Source of the DNA: Protula sp. h YS-2021
Taxonomy: Eukaryota; Annelida; Polychaeta; Sabellida; Serpulidae
Assembly (NCBI GenBank): GCA_949752745.1
Contig: OX457026.1
Location: 42,122,239-42,186,238, forward strand
DNA length: 64,000 bases
Direction of reading: 5' to 3'
Positions within the stretch are counted from its first letter, which is position 1, and each line of letters begins with the position of its first letter. Positions 17,901 through 29,900 of the stretch are shown here, piece by piece. The notes beneath the pieces are model-generated. The model did no database searches. It was given only the letters and a program-made list of their open reading frames with translations, and was not told the origin of the DNA. Position numbers and translations under genes: made by a program.

Positions 17901-20900
17901 TTCTACCCTTCGACGTTGTGATCCAAAGAGTTGCATCACTCAGGGGATGGGGATCCATTTTCAACCGAGATATGGCAGATCGTGCGGCCTCTATACTTTA
18001 AACATCGCCATCAGTCCAAGAAATTGATTGAACTCAAAGTGGTTGGACAGCCTTACGTAGACTAGCCAAACACTCAGGGGTAAGAATGCTTTGGCAGAAA
18101 ACTAGAAGGCCGTAGCGTACCAAAGATGAATGACTGACCAAGTCCTACTTCTGGCAAGGAATCAGATCTAAATCTCGGCCCGTCACCTAGCGGACAAACT
18201 CAGTACCTTGGTGATCTTGGCCTCCAAGGCAGAACAAGTAACCAGACGGAGTGGTGTTTGAAGCCCCAGAATCTCCTAGTGGGTGATCCAGCAATCGCCG
18301 AGTGGTCCAGAAAGATTGTAAAATTAAAACCCACTCATTAACAGCCAACTCATTAACAGCCCTACGTAATGCGTCACAGAAATATCATGGACGTATTGAG
18401 GTGGGTCTCTCGTCGCTAGGGCCAGTTGGTTGATTTCCTGGAATACATCCCAGAATGGTATGCCTCTGGGAACAACTGACGTGGATGACGGCGATGGACA
18501 GCCTTTCTGGGGTAGACAGAGGGTATCCTGCTGCTCGGTCCTTACTTTCTCTGGAGAGAGAATAAGAGTAACCTTGGGCGCTGTTCGGGAGTTAGAGAGT
18601 CTGGGGAGGAGGTTCAGGAGTCTATTCTTTTGCCTTCTGCCCCAAACCATGGTGTGTCCGAATTGTTGTCCTACCTACTCAGAGGGTGGGGGTTGGCTCC
18701 TTGATTCTGGATCCCTAATAGGGATCAAAATGGCCCTCTCTTTATCACATGGAATTGAAGCCAATACGCTACTACGCTAATACGCTACTAATTAATAGTA
18801 CCGTAAAACCTCATTCTGGACAAACCCTGAAATACCGGACAACTGCCAATACCGGACAAGAATTCTCAGTCCCGTTTTTCCCATTGGTTTACATGACCCC
18901 CAAAATACCGGACACCTCTATATACCGGACAAAATCCGCCAGTCCCCTCGTTGTCCGGTGTAGACAGGTTTTACTGTATGTGCTTGGTGACACCCACCCT
19001 GTGTGAACGCAGAAGTGACTAAGCCAAAACCAATGCATACCAAGGATTGATCATTGAGCCAAGACCTTGGTGTGTTCTTGGTACTCAGTACGTAAAGTAA
19101 GACACATGTAGAATACCCAGCATCAAACCCGAAGCAAGACTCAAGCATCCAGTTGTACCTTGTCCCAAGGCCGAGCCAAGTCTTGGTGCGTACACAGCAC
19201 TGAGTACCGAAACAGAACCAAGTCCTGGTGTGTAATCGTTGGTACTGGGAGTCTGTGAGGTTCCAGGGCTTTAGAATTTGCCGATTAAAGCCGCTTCTGT
19301 TGGGTCCGGACACTACCAAGCAATTTAGCATTCAGACATCCGTAGACTGAATTGACATCTGCTTTTGTGCGAGTCGTCAGCCAGCACGCCTACTCTAGTA
19401 AAGTGGTGGAGAATCTAAGTGTGACACTTCTCGGAGAAAGCTCATCTCTGTATATGCAAACTCAGATTTACGAGCAGTGACAAGTACGAAGGAAAAATCT
19501 CCAAGTAGGAGGGAAAAATTACACTCAAATTTTAAATGAGTCATATAAACATAGTATCCGAGAAAGATAAAAACAAGAGTGGGGATGAGTACTGCAGCAT
19601 GCAAGAATTCAGCTTGCACATAAACGCCTGTAGATAAAAACGAAAATGAGGCTTGGAACTAGGGTAGCAACGATTCTGATTTGTCACTATGTAGGCCTTG
19701 ACTATTAAAACCACAAAGAGAAAACTTTGTTCTAAAGAGCGTGATTCTTTTTTGAGAAACCCATATATAATAGTAATACTTCATTCTGAGTGCGTGCGAT
19801 ATTGCTTTGCCTGAAGCCGTAGGGCCGTGCGGACCGACCCCGAAGGGTGCTTATATTTAAACACTTTCATTTTGTTTTGTTTTCATATCTGCCTTCGTCA
19901 CAACCACATACAACGTTGCAAAAACTGTCAGTCTCAGAGAAGCATACTCCCGCCACCACTTTCCCTGACAAAACCACATTGGTTACCCCAGATAGCAAGC
20001 CCGCGTGGGGCCCATGTAGGCAATCGTAGGCATTACGTAGGCATTGTACTCTCGCCTTCAAAATCAGCTTGGAAGTGAAGACTATACAACTTAAAAGTTC
20101 TAGGGTTGGATGACCAACGTCCCACTCCCACCACCAGCTACACTTTACTGTCATCACGCCACAGCATTATGCACTGACAATAACAGTACTATAACCACTG
20201 GAGTAGTGTAAAAAGCAGAGAATGACCACACTTTTGAGAGTGTGGTCATTCTCTCATGAGAGAATGACCACACTCTCAAAAGTGTGGTCATTCTCTCCTT
20301 TACATTTTTGAGAGTGTGGTTAGTCTTTCATGAGAGAATGACCACACTTTTGTATATTTTACATTTTGAGAGTGTGGTCATTCTTTCATGAGAGAATGAC
20401 CCCACTTTTGTATGTTTGATAAGAGAAGCAGCACACACAGCGCACAGTGCAGTCGTTTATATATGGGAGAGCAAAAGGAGCGAAATGTTGACGAAAGTGG
20501 AGCGAAAAAGAACCAATGAGAAAGCGTTGTTAAAGATGCATTTTTATTGGCGAGCGAAAGAGTGAAATGTTTGGAGGAAAGAAAAAAAAGGGCAAATGAG
20601 AATTTAGTGTTAAAGGTGCATTTTTATTGGTGAGAGCATGTGAAAATTTCGCTCCTTTTGGTGGTTGATATAAAAGAGAGTGTATTGAAGTAAAAAAGGC
20701 CAGTTGGCAAGAGTTTGTCAAGCATGTCTATGGGACCCTCCCTCCCCCCTCCCTCCCTTTAGCATTGAGGCTTTGAAGTTGTTAGAGTATGGGAGTTGAT
20801 GATGAGAAGGTTATTTGATGGGAGTTTGAAAGCATGAAGGTTTTACACGCAGTGAGTTGGGAAGTGATGACGAAAGAGAAAAACGTCATTTGATGCAGTT

Positions 20901-26900: not shown

Positions 26901-29900
26901 TGTGTGTATGCATGAAAATGTGTGGAAATGCTTTAAAAAAAAAACTCTGATACTGTCACCCCGTCTCGGTGCACACCGTTTCACTCGAGACGCCTTCTTT
27001 TTTTCCCCCTTACAAACCCTCCCTACCATCCCCATACCATCCCCATACACGTTTTCACCGGAAACACCTTTCTTTCGCTCGCAGTGGCTTGCAATCCTTC
27101 CAACTGCATCAAATGACGTTTTTCTCTTTCGTCATCACTTCCCAACTCACTGCGTGTAAAACCTTCATGCTTTCAAACTCCCATCAAATAACCTTCTCAT
27201 CATCAACTCCCATACTCTAACAACGTCAAAGCCTCAATGCTAAAGGGAGGGAGGGGGGAGGGAGGGTCCCATAGACATGCTTGACAAACTCTTGCCAACT
27301 GGCCTTTTTTCCTTCAATACACTCTCTTTTATATCAACCACCAAAAGGAGCGAAATTTTCACATGCTCTCACCAATAAAAATGCACCTTTAACACTACAT
27401 TCTCATTTGCCGTTTTTTTTTCTTTCCTCCAAACATTTCACTCTTTCGCTCGCCAATAAAAATGCATCTTTAACAACGCTTTCTCATTGGCGCTTTTTCG
27501 CTCCACTTTCGTCAACATTTCGCTCCTTTTGCTCTCCCATATATAAACAACTGCACTGTGCACTGTGTGTGCTGCTTCTCTTATCAAACATACGAAAGTG
27601 GGGTCATTCTCTCATGAAAGAATGACCACACTCTCAAAATGTAAAACATACAAAAGTGTGGTCATTCTCTCATGAAAGAATAACCACACTCTCAAAAATG
27701 TAAAGGAGAAAATGACCACACTTTTGAGAGTGTGGTCATTCTCTCATGAGAGAATGACCACACTCTCAAAAGTGTGGTCATTCTCTCCTTTTTACACTAC
27801 TCACTGGTTACCATGAACACTCTGACGTCACCGTTCCCGTGGTAAGCGTTACGGCACTTTATATTCTGAGCCACAGGGGAAATTCGCACATTCTTGTAAC
27901 GGACATGGCACAGTTTTACACGTTGATCCCTTGACTGAAAAGCGTGTATCAGCCACAGTTCTTCCTAATTTCACCGGTCCGCTCTCGATGAAGATAGCTA
28001 TCATCCACCTGGTTCCCGTCACATCATATGTAAATACAGCAATAAATGCAACAATATGACAAAACGAAATAAAGCTTTAAAACCGTTTGTATATTGCTTT
28101 TCATACTTCACTTTTAATTCATAACCGCACACTAAATCTTCTGAAATGCCTTTCATTTGCTATCTTTCAAGCTTCATTAAGATTTTATAAGGATATTATT
28201 ACAGAAAAACCGCTTTTTTTTAGACATTCGATTGTATCTGTGTGTGAAAAATGTTAATGTCTGCAGATTCCCTGAAATTAACCAGTCAGTTTACTTTTTT
28301 TCATAAAGTTCTTGGTTGAGAAAAACTGGTATAATAGTACAATATCAGCCCCGCTTTCCAGACCTAGAGAAGCAATTCTAGCAGATATTTCATTGGTCCG
28401 TTTGGTCTTTTTAGCGATGTTGCAACATCAGAACGATATCGTTTTAGTCTCCTATGGCAACGTTGTTTACCTCGCTTTTACTGCAGATTTACTCGTCAGT
28501 CAAGTGACGTCAGAACGACATATCCAGGCTATTAGTATATCAGATGCGACATCGCTTTCACGACTTACAGAGATTCTGCAGACGTTGTTGTTTGAACAAG
28601 TTACGAACTTTGAGTTGTTCATTTGGTTGTTTGCGAACAGCTCTGCAGCGTCCGTAAGAGCTGCTGTATTAGGTAACTGCTGAAAAGAATGGGTTTTTTT
28701 CCTAAAAAGACGGGGATGCTTGACCAAGTCGTAATATTTATTGGGTGTGTACTTATAGGCGCAGTTAATAATTCTTCAAGAAATGCTCTTAGGTTCTTGC
28801 TTTCGGAAGCCTCAAGGAAGGTAACAAACATCTAAGAATGTGATTTTTCCTGACGGCTGTGTATCACATGAAATAAGACCTTGTCCTTGAAACTTCAGGA
28901 AGTCTTTAAACAATGATGATGATGATGATGATGATGATGATGATGATGATGATGATGATGATGATGGTGGTGGTGATGATTATGGTGATGATGATGATGA
29001 TGATGATGATGATGATGATGATGATGATGATGATGATGATGATGATGATGATGATGATGATGATGATGATGATGATAACCGATATTGTTTGTAATATCGG
29101 GTAATTTATACAGAAACGCTTTGATTGGAAGCACTCCTCTGCATTCGTTTTTTGCAGATTATCTTTGTGAATGATGAAAATAATAATAAATTTCTATCAG
29201 AATACCTGATGACCCTATGAGGCATATGTCTTTCGAAAGAAACCATTACGTTAGAAGACAGAGTGCCAGTTTGAAATTTAGGAAGGAATCGAGTCTAATA
29301 TTGTATTTATAAAATGTTTGTCTGTTTCTTTGCAGTTGCAATCATTTGAGAATTCTGCTTATGGGAACGTTAAAGATGATATTCCATACGTGGAAATGTC
29401 CATTACGGCGAACGGCCATGCATCCTCTGACGTCAATGCGAATATCCACAACGAGACTGCTGGCAGCAGGAGGTCCGTACGCCGTCACAGAAAATACGGA
29501 CATCGCTGCATATGCTGCTTTATAGCCGCGGGTTTATTCATATGCTTCATCGCAGCTGCTGTTATTGGTCTGATATTACGCGTGTCAGGTAAGCAACGCT
29601 GGTCGTGTGTGGATGCCTCGTCACTGGGAGAAAGAAGGGTACTCTCCACTCGAGCAATGGTGACAGTTAAATTTGCAGTGATATTCAGGGTTCGCGTTAG
29701 CGGGGTTTTTGTCCACTTTTTGGGCATTTTTTACGAAATGACTCACCTTTTCGGAACCCACCGAGTTTTTCTGGACCTAACTGAGTCACACTTTCCCTTT
29801 TTGACTCACTTTCCTGAGAACCCTGCGCGAACCCTGATATTATCAGAAATTTTAAACATAGGTATTGGATTTAAAAACATAAATAACAAACTTGCGACCA

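Follow-up and report, generated by a model that had tools for sequence, protein, structure and literature searches.

The 64,000-nucleotide stretch of the Protula sp. h YS-2021 genome considered here (contig OX457026.1, positions 42,122,239 to 42,186,238; "the window" below) holds a 7.6-kb palindromic element with Polinton-like ends, an intact pair of genes and no recognised transposition gene, and it raises the question of how such an element is mobilised, where its genes belong, and what keeps its two arms alike. Our answer, to which we give a probability of about 0.72, is that it is a non-autonomous Polinton satellite with a cassette of its own, and that the palindrome is a recurrent form whose arms are kept alike.

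The boundaries can be read directly from the sequence. Target-site duplications CACTGG lie at 20196..20201 and 27802..27807, and the 7,600 bp between them (20202..27801) start with AGTAGTGTAAAAA and finish with TTTTTACACTACT; an earlier note, made from the sequence alone, had described both the duplication and the inverted termini, and both are present. In the whole window, the 13-mer AGTAGTGTAAAAA was found at these two termini only. Gapped alignment reproduced the layout that the note had proposed, with a left arm of 3.76 kb (20202..23962, + strand), a right arm of 3.70 kb (24101..27801, - strand) and, where the gapped arms end at 23962 and 24101, a unique spacer of 138 bp (23963..24100); indels included, the arms make up the 7,600 bp minus these 138 bp, which is a fold-back feature. 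The longest ungapped pairing (22140-23955 with 24107-25922) covers 1,816 nt with 6 differences. Divergence between the arms is uneven, with 0 differences in the 1,651 nt of 22294-23944 versus 26 in the 1,500 nt of five aligned outer segments (Fisher P 4e-9). An assembly artefact, made of unrecognised hairpin reads or joined haplotypes, might leave inner arms 100% identical across 1,651 bp, but the unique flanks with their 6-bp duplication, the 26 outer substitutions, two large indels, the unique spacer, and six other full inverted pairs of the cassette described below, elsewhere in the genome, make this scarcely credible.

Each arm carries one member of the intact gene pair that had been noted: two identical open reading frames (ORFs) of 241 codons point outward from the spacer, copy 1 at 22922..23647 (- strand) and copy 2 at 24415..25140 (+ strand), each with TATATAAG 61 bases 5' of its ATG and AATAAA past its stop. 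When the inner arm was dinucleotide-shuffled 500 times, no ORF was longer than 199 codons, against the 241 seen.

To place the ends, the host genome (863 Mb) was searched with the terminal 505 bp of the element. There were at least 71 matches (40 of 148 first-look candidates were scored), many of them inverted pairs 5-25 kb apart, and twelve such pairs were compared, using their ends or whole short elements; relatives are referred to below by the letters A to M. Their best inverted end alignments reach 82-98% over 0.35-1.8 kb. Under a strict test, an exact 6-bp duplication adjoining a 14-bp perfect terminal match, the copies with duplications of their own that the earlier note had sought are found in six of the twelve pairs: A (CAGTTG), C (TTAATG), E (TGGAAG), H (GCGAGT), I (GCTACT) and K (CATAAC). 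On a looser look, the duplications of D and J agree at 5 of 6 bases and the flanks of B are microsatellite; F and L yielded a single end each, and G and M none. AGTAGT termini are common to the 7.6-kb element and the located ends of A, B, C, E, H, I, J and K, and D has AGAAGT at one end. Ends of the form 5'-AG ... CT-3' are the rule for Polintons. A target-site duplication of 6 bp is likewise given for Polintons in the consulted part of PMC10045372. Two other classes were considered and rejected: IS3EU/GingerRoot elements, for which the same part of that paper gives 6-bp duplications with TA..TA or occasionally TG..CA ends, as the 7.6-kb element ends AG..CT; and Ginger2/Tdd elements, for which the consulted section of PMC2836005 gives TGTNR ends and AT-rich RTATAY targets, as its ends are AGTAG and its target is CACTGG.

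The long relatives A, B, H and K, of 20-23 kb each, were scanned for genes; the Pfam scan covered 20 ORFs (10 from A, 6 from B, 2 from H, 1 from C and 1 from K), with E, I, J, L and M outside it. An rve integrase core was found in A, H and K (E 3e-10 to 3e-12), with a chromodomain added in A and H, and in H an Adeno_IVa2/Pox_A32-like ATPase continues from the integrase ORF. Endonuclease_7 matches below the cut-off occur in two further ORFs, of A and B, and at E 0.01 Pfam matched none of the other 15 scanned ORFs. Large ORFs of A, B, H and K share a DTDS motif, and the alignment of those of A, B and K also has DANNLYG and KLMNNSVFGKTMEN; we take all three to be motifs of DNA polymerase B (PolB). 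The H ORF has a weak DNA_pol_B_2 match (E 8e-4) beside an Endonuclease_7 match. Judged by this gene content the long relatives are Polintons, so that the full-length relatives which the note had suggested looking for, bearing polymerase or integrase genes, were found: rve in A, H and K, and PolB-like frames in A, B, H and K. In H (L034:2283-4295) the integrase and the packaging-type ATPase stand in a single frame of 671 codons, by fusion, a lost stop or exon structure. A separate locus (L042/L043, C1:109080300-109094000) has Polinton-type ends (AGTAGTATGAAAAC, flank ATTATG), four in tandem with a period of about 3.6 kb.

The 7.6-kb element itself is not an autonomous Polinton, as no polymerase, integrase or set of capsid, ATPase and protease genes was found in it. 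In tblastn searches a piece of the PolB-like ORF of A had no match in the window or in the cassette loci, and the integrase of A had none in the window. Among the eight ORFs of the element searched against Pfam only the C2H2 gene scored above the cut-off, and the seven other arm ORFs did not, a negative for capsid, ATPase and protease that divergent capsid genes could escape. The earlier statement that it carries no known transposition genes thus agrees with our searches, and its description as Polinton-like is borne out by ends common to relatives with integrase and PolB-like genes, A having both, and by the 6-bp duplications. The element is very probably a non-autonomous satellite of Polintons. 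Because ends and duplications are common to both, we infer mobilisation in trans: the integrase of a resident Polinton would recognise the Polinton-type ends of the element and leave the 6-bp target duplications.

Where, then, do its genes belong? The earlier note had offered, as one possibility, a deletion derivative made up only of very long, gene-bearing terminal repeats. One such origin would be a simple fold-back remnant of one Polinton, an internal deletion having brought two like ends together and trapped a Polinton gene in the lengthened repeat. The terminal repeats are indeed of Polinton type. Arm positions 172-974, within the outer left arm (20202..21201, + strand), are 87-90% identical to both ends of Polintons A and B, and the outer right arm (26802..27801, - strand) has the same likeness; altogether, the likeness to the ends of long elements covers arm positions 1-1000 and 1055-1510, two stretches that do not adjoin each other in those elements (parts of the second, the subterminal stretch at 21256..21711, + strand, recur near the ends of the long relatives). 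Such a derivative can also be pointed to in the genome, since element C (L013, C38:32200-39000) has 5.4 kb with inverted arms of about 1.5 kb around long-element sequence, a target-site duplication TTAATG and no zinc-finger gene, and probably arose by a separate deletion within the same Polinton lineage. The inner arm of the 7.6-kb element is another matter. For arm positions 1533-3697, matches are limited to the short elements D, F and G, plus small bits such as a fragment beside K. With the gene and 36 of its relatives as queries, tblastn detected the family in F, D and G and as a fragment lying outside K; the family was absent from the pieces of A, B, C, E, H, I and K, and from the end pieces of J, L and M, that were searched.

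A DNA search with the gene region returned at least 49 matches, 40 of them near full length at 95-100% identity (40 of 3,129 first-look candidates were scored, and candidates do not equal copies). Near-full-length cassettes number at least 40 copies at no fewer than about 32 places, seven of which have two full inverted copies; the count is a lower bound, D and G being missing from the list. By these matches, the inner part, with its 155-bp repeats, AACATGTT arrays and two-finger C2H2 gene, is a separate repeated cassette. Because the cassette is absent from the Polinton pieces searched and forms a repeated family itself, the element is not simply a deletion derivative, an origin that we now consider improbable given that the cassette has its own places and several end backgrounds. 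At G000 (C5:81339150-81342121) cassettes stand in direct, not inverted, tandem. A fragment of the zinc-finger gene (L025:1-123) lies just outside the left end of K, and matches resembling the AACATGTT array (L026, near 4278-4351) lie outside its right end; perhaps an older cassette was the insertion site of K.

Twelve cassette elements were compared: the 7.6-kb element, F (which includes L047 and L048), D, G, L046 and L049-L055. Two inverted gene copies are present in six of them (the 7.6-kb element, F, L052, L054, L055 and L053, the second copy of L053 being partial), and the other six have one copy within the stretch read. The gene is intact in the 7.6-kb element, L046, L049, L050, L052 and L053; it is broken in F, with two stops per copy, and in D and G, with frame breaks, while no full frame was found in L054 or L055 and the gene start was not recognised in L051. 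The centres differ, with loops of 138 nt in the 7.6-kb element, 17 in F, 87 in L054 and 231 in L055; L052 aligns straight through its centre. A blastn search with 23956-24106 found spacer-related sequence in L049, L018 (G), L054 and L055, and 43 nt of it in L014 (D). A part of the spacer that is single-copy in the 7.6-kb element occurs in L054 and L049 as an inverted duplication, and the centre of F is duplicated in a way not found in the 7.6-kb element. G retains, by eye, most of the 138-bp spacer together with 17 nt left over from the start of a second gene. Given these remnants of the spacer and of a second gene, the single-gene member G appears to be a decayed palindrome, and D is probably one too; the turning point itself seems to have shifted within the family.

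The arms of one palindrome resemble each other more than they resemble those of other elements. In a four-way alignment of the arms of the 7.6-kb element and F (3,086 ungapped columns), 207 columns are concerted, separating the elements with both arms agreeing, 3 are arm-wise, separating left from right in both, and 0 are crossed; the concerted signal is also seen in the well-aligned blocks. In the gene tree, copies within an element pair in all five two-gene elements tested (identical in two, with support of 0.88-0.99 in three), and gene distances are 0-0.4% within an element versus 0.5-2.5% to the nearest other. These comparisons show that the arms of cassette palindromes evolve in concert.

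The outer ends appear to tell a different history from the genes. Over 300, 300 and 723 nt, respectively, the gene of the 7.6-kb element is 98-100% alike to those of D, G and F; among the ends compared, the nearest are those of A for the 7.6-kb element (89-90%), of B/A for D (93-97%), of E, J and others for F (85-90%), and of the C1:109.08-Mb tandem for G (94-95%, over 228 bp only). L052 begins AGTAGTATGAAAAGG, like Polinton H, and has the target-site duplication CCTAGT. Between the 7.6-kb element and F, divergence per block is 0.8-2.4% at arm positions 2500-3500 and 11-18% at 250-1250. Since near-identical genes carry different nearest ends, an exchange of ends between lineages would be the simplest account. 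One cassette type in differing end backgrounds might also be expected if the cassette were an independent mobile unit that entered Polinton-derived DNA, its palindromes being chance head-to-head pairs; yet the pairs are placed as mirror images around a related spacer, and the 7.6-kb element and L052 have matched ends with a single outer duplication, so that we hold this to be very improbable.

Two mechanisms might keep the arms alike. In the account we prefer, the cassette would fold back on itself near its centre, the palindrome being a recurrent form of the family, and either gene conversion from arm to arm or snap-back (turn-around) copying, as a helper polymerase replicates the element by strand displacement, would keep the arms alike. 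The same satellite could instead maintain its palindrome by ordinary chromosomal gene conversion and not by turn-around copying: the 0 differences in the inner 1,651 bp versus 1.7% in the outer segments resemble patchy conversion, and F has a like gradient, its inner 1,382 nt being 99% identical and further pairs 91-96%. Conversion of existing arms alone cannot, however, make the inverted-duplicated spacer of L054 and L049 or the duplicated centre of F, and loop sizes differ among elements (17, 87, 138 and 231 nt); we regard it as a possible but doubtful alternative. Turn-around copying would explain both arm homogeneity and moved turning points, and gene conversion alone only the homogeneity; that such copying is the main source of the palindrome is, in our estimate, an even bet.

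The protein matches two C2H2 fingers in Pfam, followed by an acidic stretch or linker and a helical C-terminal domain; this domain is predicted with confidence (block predicted local distance difference test 92-98, residues 121 to 210), with a whole-chain predicted template modelling score of only 0.43. Foldseek with the predicted structure returned nothing at E <= 0.001, and VIA-align gave no convincing structural match for the helical part. Protein database searches gave 3 matches at first; a profile built from the first four sequences raised the number to 42, and a more distant one to 52, of which the weakest are generic finger proteins. Pfam zf-C2H2 was found in 20 of the 37 aligned relatives, and the remaining matched families are also finger families. 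Most relatives come from short ENA contigs, and several clusters represent 12-20 sequences, which would fit a repeated gene. Across six intact copies (this element, L046, L049, L050, L052 and L053) the pooled ratio of nonsynonymous to synonymous substitution rates (Ka/Ks) is 0.30, from 1-10 synonymous changes per pair and non-independent pairs, and is moderate evidence of selection on the gene.

In the 7.6-kb element, AACATGTT occurs 18 times per inner arm, on both sides of the gene, versus a mean of 0.2 and a maximum of 2 in 500 shuffles, and all 36 occurrences in the window are inside the element. The sites form AACATGTT / GTTGAACATGTTCAAC dyad arrays downstream of the left gene (22535..22765) and of the right gene (25297..25527), and AACATGTT arrays upstream of copy 1 (23700..23825) and copy 2 (24237..24362). 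AACATGTT arrays flank the gene on both sides in 12 of 12 cassette gene copies compared, and TATA stands at -61 in 11 of the 12, L052 being the exception. The cassette protein might bind these arrays and serve as a regulator or replication factor; that it acts on them is a tentative proposal, to which we give slightly less than an even chance. A fuller version, in which the element would be a palindromic satellite replicon with its own origin- or end-binding factor, dyad arrays, end swaps that follow the helper, and a palindrome renewed in each cycle by turn-around copying, seems to us unlikely.

Several observations weigh against the account given here. The strict search gave no exact duplication for six of the twelve pairs, and the exact 30-base end pattern matched only the element's own two ends, so that it identified no immediate helper; mobilisation in trans is argued from shared ends. 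The PolB assignment in A, B and K draws on motifs and on likeness to H, whose DNA_pol_B_2 score of 18.8 is below the curated cut-off of 25.8, and phmmer against PDB found no PolB match. Ends were sought for four further palindromes: one has ends with a duplication (L052, CCTAGT), one has ends without a duplication, and two showed no ends in the stretch read. In blastn, the outer end of L052 beyond its first bases matched none of the compared ends. Some concerted sites lie in poorly aligned outer columns, the left end of F not having been found, and chromosomal gene conversion, not replication, could homogenise the arms. Binding of the protein to DNA is a guess from the motif arrays.

Smaller features complete the layout. 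A terminal hairpin of nested GAGAATGACCACACT repeats with a perfect 40-bp stem (20217..20296) has its mirror copy near 27707-27786 in the right arm; DNA folding of 20202-20450, which covers it, gives z = -16.7. The 155-bp tandem repeats lie at 21831..22332 (+ strand) in the left arm and at 25730..26313 (- strand) in the right, which has one unit more; the arm alignment places this extra unit at 25923..26078 (- strand), and a stretch of 230 bp, absent from the right arm, at 21587..21816 (+ strand) in the left. Because part of these 230 bp (arm positions 1412-1511) sits in both arms of sister element F, they were probably lost from the right arm. Between gene and spacer each arm has four TGACGTCA sites, like the cAMP response element (CRE), set 11 bp apart, at 23882..23922 (left) and 24140..24180 (right); 8 of the 14 TGACGTCA sites in the window are inside the element. 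Elsewhere in the window, several ORFs with low-density lipoprotein (LDL)-receptor class A repeats (PF00057) at 44762-57391 (+ strand) probably belong, as exons, to an animal gene that lies downstream of the element, and reading frames at 61277-63831 (- strand) look DIRS-like, the two that were scanned having no Pfam match.

Polintons are virus-like transposons, and to our knowledge there has been very little direct observation of how they replicate and move in animals. If our account is true, a numerous family of small palindromes with Polinton ends of differing lineages and with arms kept alike would be a natural footprint of Polinton integration, perhaps also of strand-displacement replication, and would suggest that Polintons, as large DNA viruses do, have gene-carrying satellites; if the satellite-replicon version were also true, chromosomal sequence would record Polinton-type replication in an animal. 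The protein family, having site arrays next to its gene, offers a direct and testable candidate for a regulator encoded by a satellite.

With Polinton/Maverick elements the 7.6-kb element shares the 6-bp duplication, the AGT ends, and terminal repeats common to gene-bearing resident copies; it differs from them in being small and nearly all inverted repeat, in lacking a polymerase or integrase match, and in bearing two copies of a gene that the Polinton pieces searched did not contain. Fold-back (FB) and Galileo-type transposons have very long inverted repeats, and here too the arms are nearly the entire element, but the Polinton-type ends and duplication, the intact gene in each arm, and a cassette family with a related spacer across members and several end backgrounds set the 7.6-kb element apart. 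Protein-primed linear DNA viruses such as adenovirus form palindromic defective genomes, which likewise have two like ends about a turn-around point. The consulted portions of adenovirus reviews give incomplete particles only left-end DNA. The 7.6-kb palindrome, in contrast, is chromosomal and multiplied, and the helper pieces searched did not contain its gene. Virophages and adeno-associated virus are satellites of DNA viruses; unlike them, the 7.6-kb element has Polinton-type ends, is palindromic and has no capsid or polymerase gene that we could see, but as they do, it is small, carries a gene of its own, and appears to depend on the enzymes of a larger element.

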